The translations under genes and the position numbers were made by a program. Positions 1,866 to 64,000 of a stretch of 64,000 bases of DNA are shown here, piece after piece. The notes beneath the pieces are model-generated. The model worked only from the letters and a program-made list of their open reading frames with translations. It did no database searches and was not told where the DNA came from. The stretch covers positions 10,610,001 to 10,674,000 of the forward strand of contig NC_090705.1 in the NCBI RefSeq assembly GCF_040954835.1. The letters are read 5' to 3'. Each line of letters opens with the position of its first letter. Positions within the stretch are counted from its first letter, which is position 1. Origin of the DNA: Lepisosteus oculatus (Eukaryota > Chordata > Actinopteri > Semionotiformes > Lepisosteidae).

Positions 1866-4800
1866 GACTATAAAAGAGGATTAAAGATGCACAGAGCTCC
1901 CTTTTGGAATGAACCAGGATAAAGATTTTTTAAATATAACACAGCAGCTTATTTTCCTCAACTAGAATAGAGAATTTTAATGCCTCCCAGGATTGATATT
2001 GTGATAATTCTATGCTTAACTTTGTACCTACAGAAGATACTAAAAACACACACAAAACGAACTGTGTAGACATATTGTAGTACCTAAGGAACAGGTCATG
2101 GTGAATTCCACACTGAAAAGTTGAGCCCTCAGGTGTAAGTACCAGGTGAGTTTCTTCTTTCCACTTTTCAGTATGAAATTAACCTTTACTTGTTTCTTTG
2201 CAGCCAATGCACACTTATACAGCACCCCACTGAAACTTCTACTGAGTACCTGCACAGTGCAAACGAAACAGTACAGAGACAGCAAAATGAATACAAACAG
2301 TAAAGATCCTGGGCCAGTAGCATGGAGCTTTCTTCTTAGAAATGAGAGACACACCTGTAGATTGCCCTGCAGTAAACGTCAGTTTTTTGTGGAAACATGG
2401 AATTCTGATCTTTCAGCCAGTATTCTGGATTTTTATTCATTTTGTAGGCATCATTTCAATTTTCATCAGTATGATCAAGAAATGTGTTTTTAAACTTTAC
2501 CACTCTGCCTAAACTGTAAGAGAAACCCATGCAGGCTAAAATAGTATTTTAAAATACAACCCATATGAAAGTGAAAATGCAGATTTCCTTAGACAACCAT
2601 CACCCAAGGCTAAAGAAAAATGCTGTCAATTAACTTTTTTTTTACTGGTGAGACCTGTAAAAATGTCCCGTTTTATTATCCCTAGAAGGGTCCCTGTGGC
2701 ACCCCACGCAACAGTAACACATGGTGAACTGTCTCACTTGAGTCATTTGCTTAGTTTAATGTCTGTTTCAGCCACAATGAGAGGAATAAAACAGCTGAAT
2801 ATAACAGCCACATGTCAGTGGAGTATGAAAGGATAAACCAAGAGACAATATTAATTTATCCTAATCCCTGCGAGCATGGTGAATAAAATCATAATCCAGA
2901 CTATGAAATTCACAGAATGATTACTTAGAAAAGTGGTCCTCAATCTGTCATGTCCTTACAGAGCCATGGATAATTTGTGAATAAAGAATAAAAAGACCAA
3001 AACTTTCCTACTGATTGTGTAGCACAACAGTGCAGGCCATGTTCTAAGAATGTCAGGCTCTTAGAATCATTTTGCCCCTTTTATTCTGTCTTTCATTTCC
3101 AGCCTGTGCCCTGCTCTATGCCTGTAGTAACCTGACAGCACCAGACACGAAATCCTAAAGTTCACTGGTTGACTCATCAAGGCGTTGTTGCCTGTTTTCT
3201 CACATTCCCGATCCAGGGAAAGCTCAGGCTCAAACAGGCACAGTGATAGGCAGTCTTAACCAGTAAGGGCGAGCTGCCCAGTCTTTGGATACTAGTGTTT
3301 ACCCTTGATCAGCATTTCTCAAAAGATGTGTCGTGGCACAGCGGTGTATCTTCAGACATTAACGGGTGTGCTGTGGAATTTGGAAAGCTCACACATGAGA
3401 AATATTTTAAATGTCTAAGTCAAATATCGTTTCTATTTACTTTAGGTTTGTGTTGAGTAACCAAAGTGTCGTGTTGCACTATCGGTATATGCACAGGACA
3501 GAGGCCACATTGCAAGACCGGATGCGCCAGACAACTATGTATTTTGCTGCAAACTCAGGTTAAACAGTGAAATAAATTGTGTTTATAGTATTAATAATAA
3601 TGTGCTTGGGCTAGTGACCAGCATGCAGGCGTGTGCCTTAAAAAAATTAAATTCATATACGTGTGCTCTAGGTTAGATAAGGTTGAAAAATACTGCCCTG
3701 GATCAAGAGAGTCCAGTCCTGACTCTGGAGACCTACAAAGTGTGTCTGTGGGTTCTAACTCCAACTCAGCTGTTAATGAGCAAGGCCAGCTGATTACTGG
3801 TTTAACTGGTCCCCTTCAACAGCTTCTGTCAGCTCTTCATGTGCCTGTGCTTTAAAGAGACCTTGAAAATCTGCAGAGACCACAGCTCTCCAGTACCAGA
3901 AAAATTGCAAACCCCTGTTCTAGGAGAATAAAAAAAGGCATTGTGTAATTTGATGAATGATGCTGTAATCACCATAGATTCGAAAGATCATTGCCATAAA
4001 CCACATTAAAGACATTTTTTAAAACAATCCTTTTAAAAGTGTGTTTTTAACATATATCAATGTTAAACATTTCTAAGTCTAAACATTTGCAATAAACACA
4101 CATAAAGAAAACTCTTGTGGAAGCATGTGGAGACTTTCATACTGTATATTCTCATATATTTATGGACAGTATATACTGTAGTAAAAATGTTTAATGTGCA
4201 CCTGAAAAGATGGTGCAATACTACAAAGAAAGACATCTTAAATGTAGATGTATATACTCATTATAAAATGTATTATATGCACGAGAACGATACCATATAT
4301 TAGTGACTAAACTATATTTAAAACCAGAAGTATTTTTAAAATAAATGCCATTATATAAATATTAATACTATAGTTTTATACAGTTCTTGTGATCCCATGG
4401 GATCTCAAAGCCACTTCAGAGATAGATAGAGCAGTAGAGTGCCCACATCCCCTACTGAATTGCTAAAATATTATTGTTGTACTAGTGCACTTTCCCCTTA
4501 CAGAAAATGCATTTGTTCCCCTCATTTTTTTAAATAATGCTCATGTAGACCTCACCTTCAAAATACTTTTCTTTTTTTATTTGCCTTCTAAATAAGCTAC
4601 ACTCTTCGGGAGACCCAATAAACAACAATACCAGTAAGAAAATAAGATACATCTTGGTCACAAAAGAGAAGATCAGTCAGCCCATTCAATTCGTTTGACT
4701 CATAGTTGCTACTGCAAACCATTTCCTGTTGTGACTAAGTGCCATTCAGCTAGATTGATAGGTTATTAGGAAAATACTCATGTCTTGAGATTGGAATAAC

Positions 4801-5417
4801 AGCAAAGATGCCACAAGGAAAAAAAAATGTCAGTTTATCATCTTACAAGCAGCAGCCATTAGAAATGTTAAATCCACATACTCAGTCAACAGCCACAGGC
4901 AAGAGTGAGCTGGTCAGCTCACAGTTTATGGCACAGAACAGAGAGACTGTTGTGCAATGAAGTCTTTTGCTGGAAACGTTTATTTTGTAACATTAACTCA
5001 TTAGCTGATGAATCACTAAAACCTATGTTTAAGGTGTGTTACGTGCACTGTTTTGTTTTTCCAAGGAGAAATAAAGTGTTTCCCCCTTTTCACTGCAGGA
5101 CAGTAACAAAAACAAAAAGCAGGTATCTAATCAGTTTCTGGAAAATCCCACATTTATCTTGTGAATGGACTTCATTCCTCCCAATGGAGATGAGTATATT
5201 TGTAACAAACAGGAGGTCTCAAGTCTAATAGACGTAAACAGAGAAACAGCAAAATGTCAAGCAATTACTGCAGGAGGCACCAATAACTAACGTCCGATTG
5301 AACACACCCCTAGTAGGGGTAGCTGCTGGCTGAGTAGTCTCACTTCTGTGCTCTCGGGCACCACTCTGCACCTATTTTCAGCAGCGTTTTGTATCCATCG
5401 AAAGCAGTAATAAACTG
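1866..5417. other. Probable intron of the RNF144-like gene; mostly unremarkable AT-rich DNA
   Basis: No coding exon was recognised. Two repeat-like pieces stand out: 2098-2210, which shares the AATTCCACACTGAAAAG and CTTTTCAGTATGAAATTAACC ends of the palindromic family described at 21115-21277, and 3690-3930, which resembles the repeat with inverted ends at 22845-23020. Confidence 0.4.
3690..3930. repeat. Short dispersed repeat with inverted ends, diverged copy
   Basis: The left end holds AGTCCAGTCCTGACTCTGGAG and the right end CAGTACCAGAAAAATTGC with CCCTGTTCT. The interior has CTTTAAAGAGACCTTGAAAATC. The same order is seen at 22845-23020, where the inverted ends are clearer. It looks like a small non-autonomous element; no coding capacity is seen. 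Confidence 0.45.
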
Positions 5418-5575
5418 TCTGAGCAGGGAGCTGCGTCAGCTTGCCTTGGCTGCTAAGCAGAAAGTAAAGGTGAATTTGACACTGAAAGGTGAAATAAAGG
5501 CTCAGCGGCTGAAACTTGGGGCGTCTCGTTTCTACTCTCCATTGTGGAGTTAAACCTTTGCTTGTTCCTTAGCAA
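5418..5575. repeat. Diverged copy of the palindromic hammerhead-like repeat
   Basis: The segment keeps GGGAGCTGCGTCAGC, AGTAAAGGTGAATT and the far-end GAGTTAAACCTTTGCTTGTTCC, the two termini of the family represented by 21115-21277. The centre is too altered to show the GAAAC core. Confidence 0.45.
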
Positions 5576-6250
5576 CACACAGCTACTACTATTCTTATTA
5601 CTAAATGTGTTGAGGTGACTGACTCCCTTGTCCATTAAGGCCTTTGCAGGCTGAAACACAAGACACCAGTTCCTAAATCAGAACAACCAATAACATGAGA
5701 ATTATCAATTCTCCTAAATGTGTCCTAAAATGTACCTGTCCTTCATACCGTGTATAAAAATATTATTTTATGTTTCCACGTAGTTAGAATTTTTTTTTTT
5801 TTAGATTTGTATGATCACGCTGACGATCCCCGTCTTAAAAACCTTAAAGCTTTCCAGAACTGGTGCCCCTGATGTCAAAACCGAGGGGGTACGGGGACGT
5901 ACAGTATGCGACAGCAGTGGTCCACTAAACCACCTCTAACCGCAAAGATGAACTGATAGAGCCTGCCCCCCATGTATTATCCAGAACTGTCTGTATTTTA
6001 TGCGAGTGGCTAATCCCATATGTTTGTCCCGGAAAAAAAAAACCCAACAACGTCCATTTCAGGAAGTAGTTCTATTAATAATTGATCACATCTAAAAAAA
6101 AAAGTAGGCAAGGCAAATTTACAAGATCGTACGTACTCACTATCACGTCCCCTTTTTCACCGTATTAAAGCTGTAACGTGATTTTATGTCCCCCCCAACG
6201 AAAAAAAAATAATAATAATGAGGGATTTGCAGACAAACACGAGCTCTTAC

Positions 6251-7923: not shown

Positions 7924-8035
7924 GTAGTTCAGGTGGGTAGCTGCGTCAGCATGCGTCGTCGGTGGAGCCTTCTAAACGTTGTGTTTTTTTTCTTCTCTTT
8001 TCAGCATGGAATAAACTAGGTAGTTACTTTGCATT
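7924..8035 (+). repeat. Palindromic hammerhead-like repeat, internally shortened copy
   Basis: It begins CAGGTGGGTAGCTGCGTCAG, has a shortened middle with GGAGCCTTCTAAACGTTGTG, and ends CTTTTCAGCATGGAATAAAC. The left arm that would pair with the right end is deleted. It belongs to the same family as 9012-9168, 21115-21277 and 25691-25790. Confidence 0.6.
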
Positions 8036-9000: not shown

Positions 9001-9011
9001 CATGTTTCTGT

Positions 9012-9168
9012 CTTAGTAGTTCGTGTAGGTAGCTGCGTCAGCATGCGTAGGCTGCAAAGGAACAAGTAAAGGTTTACTGCTTGCCACAACACCGTGTCAC
9101 ACCTGAAGAAGGCTCCACAGCCAAAACGTTGTTTTTGTTCTCTTTTCAGCATGGAATAAACCTTTACT
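9012..9168 (+). mobile_element. Palindromic hammerhead-like short retroelement, copy with core motif
   Basis: The left end reads AGGTAGCTGCGTCAGCATGC and AACAAGTAAAGGTTTA. The right end reads CTTTTCAGCATGGAATAAAC plus the complementary CCTTTACTTG. Between them is CTGAAGA, a GGCT-CCAC-AGCC hairpin, AAAACGTTG. This is one base from the hammerhead pattern CUGANGA / stem II / GAAAC. The element is flanked by an imperfect direct repeat of TGTTTCTGT (9003-9011 and 9169-9177). It abuts a gypsy fragment on the right. Ribozyme activity is inferred, not shown. Confidence 0.55.
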
Positions 9169-9182
9169 TGTTTCTGTTTTGT

Positions 9183-9834: not shown

Positions 9835-10660
9835 CAAATGCGCAACTGTGGGATACCATCGCGACAAGACCTCCGCAGCATGTCATGATAGGGACCCCAT
9901 TTATATTGCATGTCTATCGCGGCAGTGTATATCACGACTGGCGCCTTGCTTCCATGCCACCCTGGCACCGCTGTCGCAACAAAGGTCTATATCAGGACAT
10001 GATATACCCAGATAGGATGTATTGCAATATATGGACTTTGTGTCGCGACATGGGGTCAGTATGTCCTGTCAGGGTATGTCTTATCGCAACAGACGGACTC
10101 CATGTCGCGACATGGGGGCGGGGCTTTTGGTCGGGTATGTCATATCGCGATATAGGGCCTTTCATGTCGCGACATGGGGCGGGGCATTTTTGTTGGGGGT
10201 ATGTCATATCGCGATATGCGGGCTTCATGTCGCGACATTGGGGATGAGCGTTTTGGTTGGGCATGTCATATCGCGATATAGAGCCTTTCATGTCGCGACA
10301 TAGGGGAGGGCGTTTTGGTGGGGGTATGTCATATCGCGATATGCGGGTTTCATGTCGCGACATGGGGTGGTCGTTTTATCGGCGGTACGCCATATCGCGA
10401 TATGCGGGCTTCATGTCGCGACATGGGGGTGGTCGTTTTATCGGCGGTACGCCATATCGCGATATGCGGGCTCCATGTCGCGACATGGGGGTGGGGGCAT
10501 TTTGTCGGGGTATGTCATATCCTGATATTTGGACTTAACGTCGCGATTGTGGCGCCATGACAGTGGTGTGCCGGTCGCAGTAGGTATCGCGATGTGATCG
10601 TGGTCCGCGCACTCCTGTCGTGACATGCTATCGGAGTCGTGAATGCGCTGTAGATGGCAT
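9835..10660. repeat. Tandem array of about 62-63 bp units carrying paired CG palindromes
   Basis: The palindrome CATATCGCGATAT recurs at 10141, 10205, 10267, 10330, 10391 and 10453, with a decayed copy at 10516, giving spacings of 61-64 bp. Each unit also holds a second palindrome, ATGTCGCGACAT, about 25 bp later, then a G-rich run of GGGG type. Units to the left (from about 9980) and right of this core are progressively diverged. Reading frames on both strands here are by-products of the repeat. No known satellite was recognised. Confidence 0.9.
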
Positions 10661-20998: not shown

Positions 20999-21114
20999 AC
21001 ACTAAAATAAACTTTCACCCTGGAGTCATGGAGGTAAAGGATAAAAGGGTTAAAAAGCACGTGCTAGTGAGATGTATTGATTCTGTAGATCTTAGCGAAC
21101 ATGTTTACAAGAGT

Positions 21115-21277
21115 AGTTCAAGTAGGGAGCTGCGTCAGCATGCGTAGGCTGCAAAGGAACAAGTAAAGGTTTATTTCATGCTGAAAAGAGAAGAAAGGAA
21201 TCACTCTTTGGGTGTGAGCCGAAGTGCTCACACCCGAAACGTTGTTTCCTTTCTTTTCTTTTCAGCATGGAATAAAA
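21115..21277 (+). mobile_element. Short palindromic hammerhead-like element with 12-bp target duplication
   Basis: The element of 163 bp is flanked by the perfect direct repeat GTTTACAAGAGT (21103-21114 and 21278-21289). Its interior forms a long stem: CATGCTGAAAAGAGAAGAAA pairs with TTTCTTTTCTTTTCAGCATG, allowing one or two bulges. Inside this is a second hairpin, GGGTGTGAGC-CGAAGT-GCTCACACCC, followed directly by GAAACGTTGTTT. Long stem I, stem II, GAAAC and a minimal ACGTTGT stem III is the layout of a type I hammerhead; the CUGANGA strand is lost here but present in the copy at 9012-9168. It has no coding capacity. Small non-autonomous retrozymes of Penelope-like elements have this plan. 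Confidence 0.6.
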
Positions 21278-21289
21278 GTTTACAAGAGT

Positions 21290-24674: not shown

Positions 24675-27627
24675 TCACTCGAGGTTAGACTGCGATCCCA
24701 ACAGAGAATCCTCCACTTTCTTGAACTTCTGGAGCTGGACCTGCAGTTCCCAGTACTTCAGGTAAAGCCACATCAACCTGCCGTTCCTGCGCTTATCCGT
24801 ATTCAGCCAGTCCGCACAGTGCCTGTCGTGCCTGAAAATGTCTCGGAGACCGGCTTCCAGTTGCAGCTCGGCGGCGATCGGGTCCGTGGCGGCTTTGACG
24901 AGCAGGTTCTTCTCCACCTCCAGCCGCCGGTCGCGGGGCAGCAGGACGCTGCAGTACGCGTCCTGCCTCTCGACCAGCGCCGCCTCCAGCTCCTCCAGCA
25001 GCAGGGCGGCCCTGCCCTGCCACTCCCTCTCCCTCTCCAGCGCCGCGCGGTACTGCACCCCCGCGGCGCCCGCGCGGGCGAGCCGCCTCCTCTCGGCCTC
25101 CAGGCCCTCGCGCTCCCGCCGCAGCCGCCCCCTCTCCTCCAGCAGCTGCTGGCTCTGGGACACCAGGGCTCGCCTGTAGCCCTGCACCCGGTGGCGCTCC
25201 TTCTCCAGCTCCACCTCCAGGAGAGCCGCCGACCGCCGGCTCTCCCCGAGCGCGTCCTTGTACTTCATCTCCAGATTGGCCGCGGCGGACTTCAGGGCCT
25301 CGTCGTGTCTCTCTTTCGCCTCTCCGATCTCCCTCTGGGACTCTCGGGTCCAGATCCACCCTGGGAGAGAACGCGACTGGCACGTCTTTACAGGAACAGC
25401 ACCTGAACTTTCACAAGCTTTGACAAAACCCATTCGTCTCTTGATCAGGTTGGCCCCAGGCAAGAAAATGTGGGGCTACCTACCACATAGACACCCCCCA
25501 CTGTCACGGCGAACAGGAAAGCTTATAAATACAGTGCAATCACTAACGATTCATACTAATAATAAATCATTTATTAAACCGGACAAACCAGTTGAGGTAC
25601 AATGGCCTTTTTTGCTGTACAATGGCAACCTCGAATCAATGCTGAACAAAACAGTAAGAATAATAATTAACAATAATAATAATAATATTAGTTCAAGTAG
25701 GTGCGTCAGCATGCGTAGGCTGCAAAGGAACAAGTAAAGGTTTATTCCACGTTTAAAAGAGAGAAAAGAAACAACATTTCGGGTGTGGAGATAATATTAT
25801 CATGTACTGTTTAAAGGCAGCGTTAACAAGCGCATGTTGTGAGGATTTGATATTCTGAGGAGCAGCACAGTGGTGATTCAGCACAGAAGTGAATCAATCT
25901 GAATGAATCAATCATTCAGATTGATTCACTTCTAGGAAAACTGGCCCTGGGGCGTTTGTATTGGTGTCTGCCTCGAGATGGACTGGCGTCCCGCCCAGAG
26001 CGTATCCTGCCTTGTGCCCGTTGTATGCTGGGAACGGCTCCCCCACCCCGCGACCCTGAACTGGTTCATGTGGTGTTAGAACAATGGCTGGATGGATGAT
26101 TCGCTCATACAAAGCTGGAAAGGTTACAGTCGAAGGCAAAGGCAAAGTAAAATGTCTGCAGCTCCCATAATGATGAGTGGTATTTTACTAGAAAGAATTG
26201 AATGTCAATTACTGCATGCACATGAAGAATAATCTGTGACAGGAAAATTCCTAGAAAGTTAAAGTGCAAAATGTACAAGACTGTGATTAGACCTGTACTA
26301 CTATATGGAGCTGAATGCTTGGCAGTTGGAAAGAGGGAAGAGAACTTGATGAGAAGTACTGAAATGAGGATGTTGAGATGGATTCTGCAGATTTCAATGA
26401 AGGATAAGATCAGAAATGTAGAAATCCGTAGACGATGTAGGGTGGTGGATGTGGTTGAGAAGATGCGAGAGGCGAGGTTACGGTGGTATGGACATATCAT
26501 GAGGAGGGACGTTGAGGAAGTAACAAAGAGGGTAATGGAATTTGAGGTGGAAGGTAACAGAGGAAGAGGCAGGCCTAGAAAGAGATGGATGGATTGTGTG
26601 AGAAAAGATATGGAGGTATGTGAAGTGAGTGAGGAAGATGTGCTCGACAGAGACAAGTGGAGTAGAGCAACCAAAGCAGCTGACCCCAGGACAGTCTGGG
26701 ACTAAGGCTGTGAAAAAGAAGAAGAAGACATGAAGAAGACTCCAGCCCAGACAGGGTTTGTTTCAGCCAATGTGTCCATCTCTTTCATCTGCTACAGGGC
26801 GGCACGAGACCGGGCGCTTTCGGTCAGGAGGACGAACTCAGAGCTGTTACCGGCTCGCGCTCCTCGTTTAAATAAACGGGGATAAGGAAACCACTAAGAC
26901 TAACCATCTCCTCCCAATATTCTTTATTTACAGGTTGGTTTGCTGTAAATAATATTTAATTCTTGTAAAATCCCCAGAAGTCATTACTCTATAACATACA
27001 TTATATGTAGTGTTCGAGTTTCTTAAAATGATGTAGGAATATGTGTAGAATTCGTCTTATGTAGCGGCACAACCGGTAGTTTAAATGATCATTAATGTAC
27101 TTAAACTTTGTTACAAATAAGATGTATTAGAAGAGGTTATTTAATTTTGTTTCTAATACTAAGTCAATTCTTCTTTGTTTAAATAAATGGAGGTAACGAG
27201 AAAGCACTGAAATAATTCGCAGGTACAGCGATCCCATGTTTGTATTCGCTATCTGAAACCCCCTATTTTCAATAATGCATTCCCCTGCTATAAGAGGCAT
27301 CTATGGAATACAGCTGATCCTGGACATTTAGAAACTGTTCACCACGAAGTCAGTTTTTCAAGTCAGTAATACATCGACAATGCGTAATAAGGCTGTCAAA
27401 GCAAACTGTGTGAAAAAACTGTAGACAAACCTGAAATTCACAGCAATGAACTTTATTGCATCCTGCAATGTTTTTGGCATTCTCTTTCACACAAGTACTG
27501 AATACTTACTAAAGGCAGCCAGGCCAAGCATTGGCACCAGAAGGGCATAATTCCACTTGTTCCCACCCCCGTCCCCCCTCTGGTCTGGTTGGATATTCCA
27601 TCCCGGAGGGTCATTCAGATTGTTCAT
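24675..27627 (-). CDS. CCDC127: Coiled-coil domain-containing protein 127 (complete)
   Basis: Two coding exons on the minus strand: 27627-27510 (39 codons plus one base) and 25360-24675, joined GT-AG in phase 1 to give 267 residues (human 260). The N-terminus MNNLNDPPGWN and KWNYALLVPMLGLAAF, a membrane-type segment at about residues 25-41, matches human CCDC127. A long arginine- and glutamate-rich coiled coil follows (about 45-180), then a conserved C-terminus with DRRLEVEKNLLVKA, DIFRHDRHC and NGRLMWLYLKYWEL. The second exon is extremely GC-rich, which opens long false frames on the other strand. It is head-to-head with SDHA, as in human. A molecular function is not established here. Confidence 0.95.
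25691..25790 (+). mobile_element. Palindromic hammerhead-like element, truncated copy
   Basis: It begins GTTCAAGTAGGTGCGTCAGC, then GCATGCGTAGGCTGCAAAGG, GTAAAGGTTTATTCCACG, and stops after ACAACATTTCGGGTGTGGAG. ATAATATTA occurs on both sides (25682-25690 and 25791-25799); because the site is an AAT-rich run this duplication is only suggestive. The right half of the element is missing. It is in the CCDC127 intron. Confidence 0.55.
25885..25933. repeat. Perfect 22-bp inverted repeat (hairpin)
   Basis: The left arm 25885-25906 (AGAAGTGAATCAATCTGAAT, then GA) is exactly complementary to 25912-25933, with a 5-base loop. It abuts a SINE fragment in the CCDC127 intron. Confidence 0.9.
25934..26100 (+). 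repeat. tRNA-derived SINE (family 1), 3' part only
   Basis: It contains CTGGCCCTGGGGCGTTTGTA, GATGGACTGGCGTCCCGCCC, TATCCTGCCTTGTGCCCGTT, TGCTGGGAACGGCTCC and ends ATGGCTGGATGGATGATTC. The tRNA-like head is absent, and a 22-bp hairpin borders it on the left. Confidence 0.65.
26240..26707 (+). pseudogene. Non-LTR retrotransposon ORF2 C-terminal fragment, open for 144 codons
   Basis: The frame 26271-26705 starts MYKTVIRPVLLYGAECLAVG and continues with STEMRMLRWILQISMKDKIR, a WYGHIMRRD segment and GRGRPRKRWMDCVRKDM. This is the C-terminal part of the reverse-transcriptase region of an RTE-like non-LTR element, a frequent false protein in animal genomes. Its frame is intact, which suggests a fairly young insertion. 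The catalytic core and endonuclease are absent. It lies in the CCDC127 intron on the opposite strand. Confidence 0.7.
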
Positions 27628-28741: not shown

Positions 28742-41927
<13,186 letters not shown>

Positions 41928-47498: not shown

Positions 47499-50400
47499 GT
47501 GAGGAATTATTAACCACAGGAGCATGTAGAACCTCTTAAAATCGAAGGCACCAATCCAGTATTTCTAAAAATGAAAAGTAGAGTAGAGAATAGAGAAGCC
47601 TTTCTCTCCCCCAGTCAATTTTAAAACACAATAGTGCATGAAGTATGCACTGTTGATAAGCTGTTTTCTGCACTGACATAATGCACAGTTAATAAATCTG
47701 ATTGCCCCTTTGAAATTTGAATATTTTCACTGACCATAATATGTTTCTGCTGTTCTACTGATGTTATCCTAATTATTTGTGTACAGTAATGTGCAAGTGG
47801 ATTAAAATCTGTGATTTTTGATAAGTGATCCATAAAACTTCAAAACCCTGTAGTTGAAAACCCTGTAAAATGAAAAAATGAGCTAATTCCCATGTTTCCT
47901 GTAGGGCAATACAAAACCAGAGGTAAAGAGCATGGGATTTCTTTTTAGATAAATTGTTTTTAGGAAAAATAACTCTTATTTGTTTTGCCCAAGCGAGCTA
48001 GAGCTTGCAGTCCTGGTCTTCAGTTTCCTCAGAAAATGAGCGTATTCCCACAAGGAAATGCATTCCTTCTGGGGCTGTTTGGACTCGCTTGGCCCAGTTC
48101 TCCCAGCCTCCCCCTATGAACTAACGGGTGTTTTATTCCTTAGGCCACACTACTTAAACCCTGCTCTGCACTGAGACAGAGTTCTGTCATTGAGCTACCT
48201 TCTGTACCGGGTACTGCACTCAGCATTACTAACCTGCCTCCCCGAAGTACACTCGGCCTGATCCTGCCCAGAGGATTCCCAGTCTGTCCTGACCCTCTTC
48301 TGTTCATCAGCACTGGACCAGTGGCACGGTTCCCTGCCAGTATTTCTGTACAGCGGTGCAGCCACCTGTCTCCATCTGCCCTGCCAGCTGCGTTTGCCTT
48401 CCCCTTCCCTCCGAACCCCGTCTCCATTCAGCTTCCACGTTCTCTGCCAGCTTCTGTCCACCAGCCCAGTTCGGCTATCTCCGCCTGCCTCCGACTCCCT
48501 CCGAGCCCTCACTAGGCTATTGCACTTGGGTCATCAGCTAGCCACGTGGCAACACTGTTGGGTCACTTTAATGTTATTTTACTCCCTTATCCTATTAGAT
48601 TAAAAATGTACCAGTTTCGTTACCTTACAATATGTCTTATGTAATTTTTAATTAGCTGTAAAATGAATTGCAGGGTTGGATCGTGCCTGAAATGAATGCT
48701 TTTCTGCGTGTGCTCGAATGTTGTTGAATTCTGGCCCTTTTGCTCCCTTTTGTGCTCCCTGCCGTCAGTCTCATGCCAGTGTCCCTGCCCCTCGCTCTCC
48801 TGCAGGAATGCAGGACTGCCCCATCAACGTGTACTTCACCATCGACACTTCGGAGAGCGTCGCCCTCAAAGAGTACCCATGGGGCAGCCAGGTCGAGGAG
48901 CTGAAGGTCTTCCTGAGGATGTTTGTGCAGAAGCTGCAGTCCACCACCCTGCTAGCCAAGCAGGTCCAGTGGTCCTATGGCGGGCTGCACTTCTCTGACC
49001 GGGTGGAAGTCTTCAGTCAGGTCACCAGCGAAGCTTCCATCTTCCTGGCCAGGGTGAACGCTATTAGCTACATCGGCAGGGGGACCTTCATCGACTGCGC
49101 CTTGAGGAACATGACCGAGCAGGTGCAGAGAGGAATGCTGGGAAGCAGGCATCGCCTGCAGTTTGCCGTGGTCCTGACGGACGGCCACATCACAGGAAGC
49201 CCCTGTGGAGGGGTCCAGCAAGCCGCGGAGGCCGCCAAGGCTGCTGGGATCAAGATCTTCGTCGTGGCGACCAGCTCTGACACGATGGAGAACGAGCTCA
49301 AGCACATCGCGAGTTCTCCTGTCGAGCTTTACCGCAAGGACTACTTAGCCTTCCCAAGTACCTCCCGGGAGTCTGCAGTCAACAGGATCACTGATGCAAT
49401 GGCAAGTAATGTGTGTCCAGGAACAGGAGGGTGAGAGCATGCACACACATGCAAAGCACACAGATTCAAATTTACAGATTCATGCTTCATTATCCTGAAC
49501 GGTGAGCTACAGTGTTACCAAAGCAGATACAATTAACACAACATTTTCAGTACAAACAGTACATACATCACATGAAACATACTGTACAACTTTATTAAGA
49601 GACATACAGCCATCCGTTCCTCAGGCTGTGACAGTTAAATGTATTTGGCTGCTTCAAATTGCACTTACAGACTGTTGTGGCAGCCAGGCGACATTAGAAA
49701 TACGTGTTTTTGCAATGTGAAGGAGAGATCAGATGTGCTCCAGTTTTCAGTTTCTCTTTCAATTCAGAAATCCTCAGTGTCTGAATGTGACACTGCACGG
49801 CACAGATTCTGTTCTCCCATCCCTCCATTTTCTAACTGCTTCCTCCAGTTCAGGGTCACAGGGGAGCCAGAGCCTATCCCAGCAAGCACCGGGCTCAAGG
49901 CAGGATACACCCTGGACAGGATGCCAGTCCAATGGAGGGTACACACAGATACAAACACACACACACTCACACCAGGGACAATTACTCAGAAGTCAATGAA
50001 CCCACCAGTATGTCCACCAGCATGGACTGGGCGAGGAAACCAAAGACAGGGAGAATATTATTGCTTCCTTCTGGTGCTCTAACTGGAATAATGTCTTTTT
50101 GTCCCCCACTTTAGGTGAAAGAAGGTGAATATGAGGTGAGAAAATGTTCTTATACCCTGAGACCTACAGTACCAACCCTTTACAACAGTATTGTGTATTT
50201 GCATCCTGGGAGGCAATGCTAGCAGGACAAGCAGTTTCTCTCTCTGTGTTGTAGCCCTTGCCGCTGAGGTAGTTTGCCCCAACAATTAAAACAAATTGCT
50301 CTTTATAAGAAAGGTATCTCCTTTGTTAAAAACTAACTGGAATTGCCAAGAATCCTTGTAAGGAAATCGAATCTAACAGATCATTTCTATGTCATGCAGC

Positions 50401-59400: not shown

Positions 59401-62400
59401 GGAGGGTGACATGGCTAGACGAAGATTTTTTACCTTTTTCTCCTATTTAACTCCTTGGTGGCATGAGGTGTATGTTTTGGGTCACTGCCATTCTACATGG
59501 TGCAGTGCCACCCAATAGGTGTGGAAGCATTTTCTTCTACGTCAGCAGACTAACTGCTTCTATAAACATCAGATGTCATTCGGCTGCTGTCATCATTAGT
59601 TACATCAACATTAAAGATCAGTGATCTAGTTCCAGAGGTGACCATATATACCAAAGGAAAGACATCAGCTCCACCAGGCTTCACAGAATAGTCTGTCTGT
59701 AAAACATTTAAAAATTCTGCTGGTTTATCTCCACACTTCCAACCAATTATAAACTGGGAAATTCCGATCAGTTCATGGTGCTGATGGGAGGTTTACATCC
59801 TGCGGTGTAGACTGTAAATTCTGCTTCAACGCAAGGTTGTTTAGGGTTTTCTTTGACTTGTTATTTCTTTTACTTGATGTTTTGTGCAGTTCTGCACTCA
59901 TGTTAAACAGGTTATTTTAAATCCAGCCCTTTGAACCGGCTAGAGCCCAGAACAATATACCGCAGTGGTTGAGGTACAGCCAAACCACAGCTGGCTCATC
60001 ACTGAGTCGCAGAGAATTGCCAGTGAGCTTATGGTCAATTTGTTTCTTGGTTTTTCCAAGGAAAAGAAAGAATATTGTGTGGTACCACGTACAATAATGA
60101 ACAAACAATAACCATCATCATGGCATGAAAGACGTGGTACCTAAACAAACTGTATTAATCCAAAAATAATATAAAAACAGGAATAAAGGAGTAGAAAAAA
60201 GGAAACCAGAGATTTGGGAGAGATAAGCAAAGGAAAAAGAGAAAAGAAAGAAAAAAGTAGTGAAAAGACAGAAGAGGGAAGCCACAGTCTTCAAGGTCTT
60301 TCTGTCTGGGCCGAGCTGCAAGCTCTTAAAGCAGTTTAAAAATGGCCGCCAGGCAGAATACGGTTTTGCAGTTGAGTCACAGAGGGAAAACCTCATTCTT
60401 TCTTGGCCACAGGGGGAGCCAGGGCCTGAAGGCGAGCCGGGAGACAGAGGTGTGCGGGGTCAACCCGGGCCACCGGTGAGTCTCCTCTCCGAAACACAGC
60501 AGAGGACCCCCTTCCAAAGGGGCCAGCAATGTAGCAGAGTTGTCATTATAAATTAGGTCCGGTTTTACTGAATGGATCGAACCCATGAATGAAAAGTTAT
60601 TCTGAGTTGTGCGTGAGTTTTTCTGAGGCGATGAGTGAGACGTTGCCGTTGAGCATCTATGATTAGACTCTTAGCCGTTACAGCTTTCCATGTGGCGTTA
60701 TCTACAAATGTTTCCTATCATTAACAGCGCCATTTTGATTTGCAGAAAATGCAGTCCAGTCTGGATGTTGTATGTGTTCCTGAAAGTATTTTCGATCCGT
60801 CTGTCACAACTAATAATTGCAGCACCAACCAGTCCTTATAGCTTAGAGTGCTTAATTATTCACGACAAAGCACGCCATGTATGTTTAAATCTTTGTGTAC
60901 CCAATAAACTTTTTGATCGTGTTCGATGTATCCTAGGGTGTGCCGGGCACTCGGGGACACTCTGGTTTAACGGTGAGTTTCACTTCTTGCAAATACCATC
61001 CTGTTCAAAGACGCATTGTATCGAGCTTCACCCATGTGACCCCTCTGCATTCTCTCACCAGGACTGTGAAATAATGGGTTATGTCAGGGAGACATGCGGC
61101 TGTTGCGGTGAGACTTTTTTTCCCCTCGTCTTCACAGACTGGCCCCATCTTAAAAGTAATCTATCGTGTTATTTTTAAAGCTTTTGTCTTACAAATAATA
61201 CAAGAATTCTCATTTTTGTTAGTGTATCTGTTAGATACTGTGTGAAAGTTTGCAGAAATACAGTCCAGAAACACGGAGCTTGTTACAGGTTATATAATAC
61301 GCTGTGGGAGCCTGGTGTTAGTGATGAAAACCTGAACTGGTAATGATAAAAGGGATACATTATTTATGTTGAAGGTAAAAGTTGTACACTCCTTTTTTTT
61401 CCTCCAACAGACTGTGAAAAACTATGCCGGCCTCTGGATCTTGTGTTTGTTATTGACAGCTCTGAAAGCATTGGGAAAACGAACTTCAGCCTTGCTAAAA
61501 ACTTTGTCATCAGTGTTGCCAACCGACTAGGAAAAATGTCTAAGAATGTTTCTGACATTTCAGGTAAGGAGGTGGTCAGTTTCTTGTAAAATGTTGGGTT
61601 TATGCATGTTTGTCTTTTTATGCCCATGCTGGCAATTTTGTCAGCTGTGATCCGCTGTGTGGGGAACCCAACTGAACTTTGACGTGTACTGTCAAGGAGC
61701 TGTTACTACATCATATGTTTCAGTAAACATCTAAAACCTTGATTGAGCTGCACCTTACACAATGTTTTCATCAAAAACAAAGTCCTTCCTCATCCATTAA
61801 TAAGAAACTAATTTTACGCTTACATTCCTTCAGAGAGTTTTTTCTATGAAGTTTCTGAGAAATTATATTCTCCATTCCTCATTATCCATTCATAAAATCC
61901 ATTATAGAGTTTCCACAAAGTATCTCCTGTCATATTCTCAGACACTGGAAAGAAACTGAATTATTTTTAAACCTGTACGGTATTAAGTCAAAAGAAGAGA
62001 ATGTGTGCAGTGTTTTTCTTATAGTATTAATAGTATTTCACAGCAATGAGAGAGGCATCCAACCACACATGTTTAATGAGAAACAGTCTAGGAATACCCT
62101 GGCCAACTCAACCCTACCCACCAAGCTCTGGCAGTGTGCAACCAGGTGGGAAATGCAGTTATGAGTCTCAGTGGGCTAATAACCTGGATCTGAACTGGTG
62201 AATCCTGGACTACAGGACTCGACAGAGTCTGAAAAATGTCTTTAATGTAGAAACTAAAAGTAGCTATAGAGCTCTGACAGAAAAAGGGCATTTCTGGTGA
62301 CCAGAATTTTAAAATGCTAATGAAGGTGTTTGACAGTGGAATCAAAAGCACAGACAATTCTGGATTATTTGCACTGCTGTGGCGAAGCGTCACCTGTCAC

Positions 62401-64000
62401 AGCACTAACCCGCCACTCTGACCTCTGCCCCATGCACTCAGGTTCCCGGCTGGGCGTGGTGCAGTACAGCCACCAGGGGGCCGTGCAGGCCATCCGGATG
62501 GACGACCCGGAAGTGACCTCGGTCGCCTCGTTCAAAGCCAAGGTCAAGGCGATGGAGTGGATCGCGGGCGGGACCTGGACTCCCTCGGCCCTGAAGTTCA
62601 CGTACGAGCGGCTGATCGTGCCAGGGCGGCGGCCCGGCACCAAGGTGGTCGCTATCGTCATCACGGACGGCCGGTACGACCCGAAGGACGTGGACAACCT
62701 GGGAGCCCTCTGCGGGGGCGTGGAGGTGTACGCCATCGCCATCGGCGACATGTTCGACACCAGCGCCGAACGGCAGTCCTTGGAGAAAATCGCCTGCAAC
62801 ACAAGTGACAGAGTGAAGACTCTCAGCGTGTACGCCGAGCTGACCGCTGAAGAGTTTCTGGAGGAAATTGAACAAATCCTTTGCCCGGGTAAGTTCTTTC
62901 CTTCCTCTTCCATTGACTGGTTTTGTGTACATCCCGTGTTTTGACAGCTGTGTAACCACGCCTCATTTACAATATTTCAGAGCCGGATCATATCTGCCCA
63001 GACCTGAAGTGTGCCTCGGGTAAGAAACAGTGGAATTTCTCATGGCTTTTGGACATTTTCATTTTTTAATTGAGTCCGAAGAAATGTGACATTCTTGGAA
63101 ATTGACTTGTCATGATTAATGTTCATTTTCATTTTGATGCTGAGATGTGGTGCAAAATTCATACTGTAAATCCATAAGTCTAAAACTTCACTTTTTTTCT
63201 TATGCTATAAGAATGATTTTTAAGTACACTTCTTGAAAAGTGTCCATTTTATTGATTTCATGTGCAGAGTTTTATAAAATCATGCAGGAACTGTAACATT
63301 TGGTGTTCCTGTTTCTTTAGACTTACTAAACTTTAGAAGTACTTTAGAATGTACCGCAGTTTTAACTTGGTTTTCAGAGGAATTGGTTCATGTCTTAAAT
63401 TTGTCTTTATATCTAAGCTCATTGATCCATTACTCGTATATCCAATTCACTCACTTCAGTGAAAGATGCTTGAAATTTAAATGTGGATTTTTTTTTTTCA
63501 TTGAAAGACTTCTCCACTCATTACCATCACGACTAATCTTCATTGCTCTCATTAGAGAACCCCGGGGGAATTCAAGGGTGTTTTGAAAACGACGGTAACC
63601 AGTCACGAACTACAGAAAAGTAAAACCAGCTGTTTTAAAACTGATGCTCCATCTGATGGAAGAAGAGATATTAAAAACACAACAAAGGAGTATTGGCTGT
63701 GATTTGATCTCTCTCGCCGTATTAAGTAATTGGAACGGCACTTAGTCATCAGAAAACATGCCCTAAAAGGATATTTTTTTCCAGCAAACATTCAAGCTGC
63801 GTTTGCACATTTCATACAATAGGCTGGTGTCATGCTCGTTGTCGTTGCAGGACTCAGCGTGGCTCCTCTCATCCAGCGGCCCGTGGACATCCTGTTCTTC
63901 GTCGACGGCTCGGAGCGAATGGGAGCCGACAACTTCGTGACCGCCCTGCGCTTCGTCGAGCAGATCTCCCAGGCGCTCCGGCTGGCGCCGAGGGAAACGG
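47396..64000 (+). CDS. Collagen VI alpha-2-type chain, COL6A2-like (3' end cut by the window)
   Basis: Twenty-eight exons: 47396-47498, 48806-49401, 50115-50135, 50478-50543, 50647-50700, 51081-51125, 51225-51251, 51341-51367, 52004-52048, 52178-52231, 52835-52897, 53749-53811, 53907-53960, 54058-54093, 55778-55840, 55939-56001, 56992-57054, 57613-57675, 58123-58173, 58267-58302, 58808-58870, 60413-60475, 60937-60972, 61062-61107, 61411-61563, 62442-62888, 62981-63019, 63851-64000. About 863 codons are present; human COL6A2 has 1019 residues. Order: signal peptide, N1 von Willebrand A, 335-residue triple helix, C1 A domain, start of C2 A. Every part is closer to COL6A2 than to COL6A1 or COL6A3. 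It is an extracellular microfibril chain. The position beside SDHA rather than COL6A1 suggests a paralog. Confidence 0.94.
48806..49401 (+). CDS. COL6A2-like N1 von Willebrand factor A domain exon
   Basis: One large exon encodes the whole N1 A domain. The MIDAS residues are visible: IDTSES, the threonine of [10 protein letters not shown], and the aspartate of [13 protein letters not shown]. Human-like landmarks include [15 protein letters not shown] and [11 protein letters not shown]. In the fold these residues bind a divalent ion. The exon ends after ATG at a GC dinucleotide, GCAAGT, rather than GT. Confidence 0.95.
49402..49407 (+). promoter_or_regulatory. Non-canonical GC splice donor
   Basis: The junction reads CAATG|GCAAGT. 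Splicing here in phase 0 to the 21-base exon at 50115 (VKEGEYE) reproduces the small exon KHEAYGE of human COL6A2. The nearest GT downstream (49432) would place the next exon out of frame at a TGA. GC-AG introns with a strong remaining consensus are known. Confidence 0.75.
49822..50010 (-). repeat. tRNA-derived SINE (family 1), partial, in collagen intron 2
   Basis: CCATCCCTCCATTTTCTAAC, CAGGGTCACAGGGGAGCCAG, CAAGGCAGGATACACCCTGG and ACACACACACTCACACCAGGG identify the 3' half in minus orientation. Confidence 0.7.
50508..60972 (+). CDS. COL6A2-like triple-helical domain, exons 4-23
   Basis: From [10 protein letters not shown] in exon 4 to [12 protein letters not shown] in exon 23, Gly-X-Y repeats sum to 335 residues, the length of a collagen VI helix. 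Exon sizes are 27, 36, 45, 54 or 63 bases, all starting with a Gly codon; one exon is 51 bases. That exon carries the interruption GYNFVGP, which matches human GFSYPGP. Three RGD sites occur: GTRGDSG (exon 15), GPRGDTG (exon 18) and GDRGDPG (exon 20). The helix cysteine in GCKGDPG (exon 10), used in dimer formation, is kept. The cysteines CVEQGC lie just before. Confidence 0.93.
53182..53450 (-). repeat. tRNA-derived SINE (family 1) in collagen intron 11
   Basis: CACTTCATCCAATTCAGGAG, AAAATACACCCTGGGCATT, CATCACAGGGCACACAGACA, CATGGGGAGACCATACAAAC and GAACCCAGGGCCTCAGCTC mark a minus-strand copy lacking only short ends. Confidence 0.7.
55480..55695. repeat. Dispersed repeat resembling a fish LINE 3' end
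   Basis: The segment with CTTTACACACAGGGTGGTTG, GACTGGATGAGTTCCTTGG, CAAACTACTAAACAATCAAG and AGGCCAAACGACCATCTG recalls the 3' ends of fish non-LTR elements. Family not named. It sits in collagen intron 14. Confidence 0.4.
60195..60285 (+). repeat. Polypurine tract of about 90 bases in collagen intron 21
   Basis: GGAGTAGAAAAAAGGAAACC to AAGACAGAAGAGGGAAG is almost pure A and G, with only a few pyrimidines. It is 130 bases upstream of exon 22. Confidence 0.6.
61062..63019 (+). CDS. COL6A2-like C1 von Willebrand A domain with cysteine linker
   Basis: Exon 24 has YVRETCGCC, the junction after the helix, as in human. Exon 25 has [11 protein letters not shown] (MIDAS) and exon 26 has [32 protein letters not shown] and ALCGG, ending ILCPG. 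The C1-C2 linker exon 62981-63019 reads CPDLKCAS, with both cysteines of human CPDLPC. The MIDAS residues D, S, S, T and D are present. Confidence 0.92.
63851..64000 (+). CDS. COL6A2-like C2 von Willebrand A domain, first 50 residues only
   Basis: The last exon in the window opens with [24 protein letters not shown]. Human COL6A2 has RPVDIVFLLDGSERLG. The MIDAS-like motif is DGSER rather than DxSxS, exactly as in human, so this loss is ancestral. The window ends inside this exon; about 155 more residues are expected. Confidence 0.9.

Follow-up and report, generated by a model that had tools for sequence, protein, structure and literature searches.

In an account of a Penelope-like element (PLE) from Anolis (PMC11167929), the open reading frame is described as beginning at stem II of a hammerhead, reverse transcription as starting 111-118 bp into that frame, and a 30-40 bp tail as lying between two start sites. 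The encoded protein is reported to cut and extend the two strands alike, their start sites showing no apparent difference, and the same account regards the integration steps after first-strand synthesis as yet to be validated. PLEs of Adineta, as described in PMC3846280, feature inverted pseudo-LTRs (pLTRs) that meet at head-to-head palindromic junctions, and one of the pLTRs may carry a 31-bp tail; their target duplications measure 8-10 bp and are absent from some copies, and solo pLTRs occur as well. Similarly, a curation guide (PMC8969392) names truncation at the 5′ end, inversion of pLTRs and short extensions at the 3′ end as PLE features. Hammerheads found in PLEs are reported to be minimal variants in which helix III or the loop-loop interactions are missing (PMC7761336). 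The repeats of animal retrozymes are reported to be arranged in tandem and to carry canonical type I hammerheads, and their RNAs to be circular (PMC7229834).

We analysed a 64,000-nucleotide stretch of Lepisosteus oculatus DNA (the window), in which 163 bp are enclosed between exact 12-bp repeats of GTTTACAAGAGT; this element is called c5 herein. A repeat score equal to that of c5 was reached by only 2 of 1500 (0.13%) random flank pairs of similar spacing. The enclosed unit folds as a long hairpin of -81.5 kcal/mol, as compared to -39.8 kcal/mol (sd 3.9) for shuffled sequences (z = -10.8), and none of 200 shuffles reached its fold energy. The palindrome and its flanking duplication are real, chance being excluded as their source, and a preliminary description of this locus was correct in proposing that the element had inserted as a unit and that it contains a long stem. 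An arm alignment places the sense strand of c5 on the minus strand and divides the element as follows:

21103..21114, no strand: left copy of the target site duplication, GTTTACAAGAGT (exact-repeat and random-flank comparison)
21115..21220, minus strand (sense): tailed arm, 5′-truncated, from approximately hammerhead stem II to the terminus ..CTACTTGAACT (arm alignment, profile match)
21115..21153, minus strand: 39-nt tail, present in the tailed arm and absent from the inverted arm (arm alignment)
21210..21235, no strand: inversion junction hairpin, GGGTGTGAGC-CGAAGT-GCTCACACCC (inspection, folding)
21219..21277, plus strand: inverted (head-to-head) arm, tail-less, with the end ..GGAATAAAA (arm alignment, profile)
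21278..21289, no strand: right copy of the target site duplication, GTTTACAAGAGT (exact-repeat and random-flank comparison)

The best explanation of this arrangement is that c5 consists of two 5′-truncated pLTR pieces fused head to head, which contain a hammerhead motif along with what would be the start of a coding region. Short head-to-head pLTR fragments of PLEs are an insertion type that is already known and whose main value lies in recording how PLEs copy themselves into DNA, and we consider c5 very probably to be a dead PLE insertion with this structure.

The preliminary description missed that c5 belongs to a family with further members in the window. A self-search with c5 as the query revealed six dispersed related copies in the window, comprising 11 arms in total. 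A profile search of the window returned 11 arm matches at E <= 6.3e-6, including the c5 tailed arm at E 1.8e-31 (with a profile trained on that arm), and one further match at E 0.4 (37926-37955), while a reversed-sequence control of the window gave no match to the arm profile at E <= 5. Since the profile was built from the same 11 arms that it recovers, this result mainly shows that the window holds no further clear copy. The copies are approximately 90-165 bp in length and consist of arms alone. Those other than c5 are:

2086..2244, plus strand (sense): copy c1, head-to-head, flanked by AGGTACT on both sides (self-search, profile; limits counted by hand)
5415..5579, minus strand: copy c2, head-to-head (self-search, profile)
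7926..8016, minus strand: copy c3, head-to-head, with a tailed arm of just 31 nt (arm alignment, profile; limits counted by hand)
9015..9168, minus strand: copy c4, head-to-head (profile)
25690..25790, minus strand: copy c6, a single tailed arm without an inverted partner (profile)

Several hallmarks of PLEs are apparent in this family. The first, found in five of the six copies, is 5′ truncation combined with pLTR pieces in inverted, head-to-head order; each of these copies is made of two 5′-truncated pieces of the same element end, and the junction of c3 additionally carries a short inverted scrap. The second is a fixed 3′ terminus with an optional tail of 30-40 bp. When the copies are written opposite to the direction of the preliminary description, a common terminus, ..CTCCCTACTTGAACT, adjoins the target duplication, and its terminal GAACT is exact in c3, c4, c5 and c6 (4/6), whereas c1 and c2 have degraded versions of it. 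The copies agree on this side only, the opposite side and the centre being variable, which corresponds to a fixed 3′ end and a variable 5′ end. The tail measures 39 nt in c5 and 35 nt in c6. These last 39 nt are missing from four of the five inverted arms (c1, c3, c4 and c5), the case of c2 being ambiguous. The inverted arms of c1 and c4 end at or within GTTCCTT, which precedes the tail, that of c2 ends at GTTCCTT or slightly past it, and those of c5 and c3 end approximately 10 nt before the tail boundary.

The third hallmark, a short target duplication (approximately 8-10 bp in published elements and absent in some copies), is likewise present, with duplications of 7-12 bp flanking five of the six copies, two of them weak. 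For c5 the duplication is exact over 12 bp (null fraction 0.0013). The sequence TGTTTCTGTYTT flanks c4 at 9003-9014 and 9169-9180, with 11 of 12 positions matching when counted by hand and 9 exact as computed (null fraction 0.0027). Copy c6 is flanked on both sides by ATAATATT, a duplication of 8-9 bp with a null fraction of 0.0027 at an AT-rich repeat site, where chance matches are likelier than the null assumes. The two weak cases are c3, flanked twice by the 8-bp AGGTAGTT overlapping its terminus (null fraction 0.012), and c1, with 7 bp (null fraction 0.044); no duplication was found in the flanks of c2 (null fraction 1.0).

The distance from the start of stem II to the terminus amounts to approximately 110 majority alignment columns, which compares with the 111-118 bp at which reverse transcription starts within the frame of the Anolis PLE. 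A reading frame through KPLLVPLQPTHADA can be followed into the tail in c4, c5 and c6; it is broken just upstream of KPLLVPLQPTHADA in c5 and c6 and elsewhere in several copies, and is therefore weak evidence. A Pfam search of eight chosen open reading frames of the window identified no reverse transcriptase, GIY-YIG or retroelement domain. The connection to Penelope-like elements drawn in the preliminary description is thus supported by anatomy, namely the tail length, the distance from stem II to the terminus and the inverted pieces, and not by a coding region behind it. We conclude that this connection between PLEs and hammerheads was probably right.

The window contains a number of features besides this family. 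A tandem array at 10072-10528 repeats a 62-bp unit 7.3 times with 81% matches, and within it are short palindromes, for example ATATCGCGATAT and CATGTCGCGACATG. On the minus strand at 1039-1157, a 5S rRNA-like sequence matches the full 120-position model (55.4 bits, E 7.1e-9) and represents either a 5S gene that has diverged or the 5S-derived head of a SINE. An open reading frame at 30436-30813 (plus strand) contains an exon for a succinate dehydrogenase flavoprotein (E 2.5e-29), with an SDHA-like FAD domain in Pfam. Another, at 24675-25463 (minus strand), has no Pfam match; it presumably resembles CCDC127, which together with the SDHA-like exon would fit a vertebrate gene order. Two plus-strand reading frames with VWA domains, at 48718-49434 (E 6.9e-25) and 62330-62944 (E 1.1e-15), possibly belong to a collagen VI-type gene.

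The hammerhead-related sequences are located in c4 and c5 as follows, where the assignment of their core strands to the hammerhead motif is our own presumption:

9103..9127, plus strand: candidate minimal hammerhead in the c4 inverted arm, CTGAAGA-A-GGCT(CCAC)AGCC-AAAAC
21236..21245, plus strand: GAAACGTTGT, taken to be the hammerhead 3′ core strand with a minimal stem III, in the c5 inverted arm
21219..21225, plus strand: CCGAAGT, a probable degraded CUGANGA box in the hairpin loop of the c5 inverted arm (hand alignment with CTGAAGA of c4)
21201..21209, minus strand: degraded counterpart of the GAAACGTTGT strand in the c5 tailed arm (arm alignment)

From position 9103, c4 reads CTGAAGA-A-GGCT(CCAC)AGCC-AAAACGTTGT on the plus strand, which is the sense of its inverted arm. 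Both hammerhead core strands are therefore found in c4, but AAAAC replaces GAAAC and one extra A follows CTGAAGA. Only half-motifs are present in c5 and in c6, which carries CCCGAAATGTTGT. In c5, the strand with GAAAC and ACGTTGT that had been pointed out as hammerhead-related is indeed present in one arm as GAAACGTTGT, which has no other exact match in the window, both strands considered. Other elements of that hammerhead drawing have to be reassigned. What was taken for a degenerate CUGANGA strand is apparently TCACTCTTT (21201-21209), which aligns with the complement of the GAAAC-bearing GAAACGTTGT in the opposite arm. Similarly, the inner hairpin (GGGTGTGAGC/GCTCACACCC with a 6-nt loop) is the inversion junction and not stem II, which is represented in c4 by GGCT(CCAC)AGCC. 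A hairpin that resembles a hammerhead by eye can therefore be an inversion junction.

Rfam searches identified no hammerhead family, either across the whole window at the gathering threshold or, with permissive E-values, in three stretches including positions 1-30000, where all six copies reside; in both cases the models were applied to single copies. Matches to miRNA, snoRNA and sRNA families scored far under their gathering scores, and those over the copies are probably driven by the palindromes. The missing hammerhead match may be explicable by the minimal form of PLE hammerheads. A loose hammerhead descriptor found one site in the window, that of c4. In 200 Markov-random windows the descriptor matched a mean of 0.315 sites per window, and 25.5% of these windows held one or more; the motif alone is therefore not significant, and it is its position within the family that carries weight. 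Minimum-energy folding of the c4 stretch did not return a hammerhead fold (z -0.83). The preliminary description proposed activity. The two core strands are not both intact in any of the six copies, and for this reason we do not assign activity to c5, whose hammerhead was presumably carried in with the element end and is not expected to work.

The hammerhead region may also coincide with the inner limits of the arms. In the arm alignment CTGAAGA occupies columns 26-32 and GAAAC columns 46-51, and 8 of the 11 arm 5′ ends, from c1, c2, c3, c5 and c6, appear to fall between these motifs at columns 29-48, several arm limits having been placed by eye. For the tailed arm of c5 the start was set by eye at column 35, the computed value of column 0 being due to four stray letters at the left edge. 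This clustering within the hammerhead core looks as if reverse transcription had stalled there, which we offer as a lead only. The 5′ ends lie upstream of the expected cleavage site, and thus self-cleavage of the RNA would not account for them.

These observations can be accommodated by a model of two-sided target priming. A PLE enzyme would make a staggered cut at the target, and reverse transcription would then be primed on both cut strands at internal start sites of the PLE. Each cDNA would end prematurely, in many cases within the hammerhead or close to it, and joining of the two cDNA ends would yield a palindrome that is bounded by the start sites and flanked by duplicated target. Such priming would account in one step for outer ends at or near start sites, a duplication around the pair, junctions that differ among copies, and arms that repeat the same stretch. 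Both arms cover the same stretch in c1, c2 and c5, whereas in c4 they share 18 columns and in c3 they do not overlap. The inverted ends of c5 and c3, which fall short of the tail boundary, are awkward for this model. The two arms of c5 are identical at 44 of 52 positions, as compared to 37/41 between the inverted arms of c5 and c3, 83/101 between the tailed arms of c5 and c6, and 37/51 between the inverted arm of c5 and the tailed arm of c6. The c5 arms thus resemble each other about as closely as do arms taken from separate copies, while the duplication around them is perfect, as if they had been copied from different templates. This combination favours separate templates only weakly. We put forward tentatively, at somewhat below even chances, that two-sided target priming produced inserts of the c5 type. 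With the same reserve, PLE enzymes might routinely finish insertion by priming on both strands from two separate RNAs. If so, minipalindromes would mark this mode of priming in genomes, and self-priming would not be needed to explain why PLEs have inverted pLTRs. Among the papers listed in our literature search, which lay largely outside subscription journals, no title or opening of an abstract proposed two-sided priming for PLEs, and we claim no priority.

A serious rival to two-sided priming is that a single PLE cDNA, or an antisense RNA, snapped back and was extended to form the palindrome, which would leave the PLE origin unchanged. This type of self-priming was suggested for Adineta PLEs in view of palindromes at their inverted junctions (PMC3846280), and the c5 junction does form such a palindrome, with 10 perfectly paired bp around a 6-nt loop. 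On the other hand, arm lengths and break points are unequal (c3 and c4), and 8 of the 52 sites aligned between the two c5 arms are different, next to a perfect duplication. Had the c5 arms been identical at birth, approximately 2 changes would be expected in the 12 bp of the duplication, and finding none has a P of ~0.1, a weak argument. Taken together, we regard self-priming as possible and rather improbable. A genome with short two-arm copies provides a direct test between it and two-sided priming.

Twin priming as known for LINE-1, in which both pieces derive from one RNA and the 5′ piece is inverted, would likewise produce the inverted 5′ piece and the target duplication seen here. Twin priming on one monomeric RNA yields adjoining rather than repeated segments, whereas the arms repeat the same stretch in c1, c2, c5 and 18 columns of c4. 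A tandem PLE RNA could rescue this explanation, and the arms of c3 do not overlap, but we consider it unlikely.

The preliminary description labelled c5 a retrozyme, that is, a short non-autonomous hammerhead retroelement that propagates itself. Animal retrozyme RNAs are reported to measure ~170-400 nt and to co-occur with PLEs (PMC7229834, PMC7761336), which would suit this label. The family speaks differently, with arms arranged head-to-head, junctions that vary among copies, no canonical hammerhead by Rfam and none of the six copies covered by a tandem array, the tandem or dimeric arrangement having been suggested as a check; a tandem-repeat match at 25650-25686 corresponds to the AT-rich flank of c6 and not to an array of copies. 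The label therefore appears very unlikely to apply. A foldback or MITE-type DNA transposon, which the length of the inverted arms and the direct repeat around them might bring to mind, is highly improbable given duplications that vary from 7 to 12 bp, two outer sides that differ, arms of unequal length, and a copy (c6) that has one arm with a duplication of its own.

A tRNA-type SINE was also considered and rejected using the pol III A- and B-box consensus, as none of the six copies contains a B box (<=1 mismatch); A-box matches (<=2 mismatches) occur in two of the six, and the window is without a tRNA. Two scans of viral_contigs for exact patterns yielded 0 loci, which is unsurprising for an animal element.

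In comparison with described systems, the copies share with animal retrozymes (PMC7229834) that they are short, non-autonomous and associated with a hammerhead-like motif. They resemble Poseidon of Anolis carolinensis (PAc) as described in PMC11167929, with a candidate hammerhead at what would be the coding start, a terminus that lies approximately 110 nt beyond stem II, like the internal reverse-transcription start of PAc, and a tail. This is a likeness of anatomy; no coding region was seen in the window copies. The inverted PLE copies reported from Adineta are mostly long and include pieces of open reading frames (PMC3846280), unlike the window copies of approximately 90-165 bp that are made of arms only. 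Nevertheless, an inverted pLTR, a palindromic junction, a one-sided tail and a short target duplication are all features that the window copies have in common with Pen2a of Adineta vaga and others described in the same report (PMC3846280).
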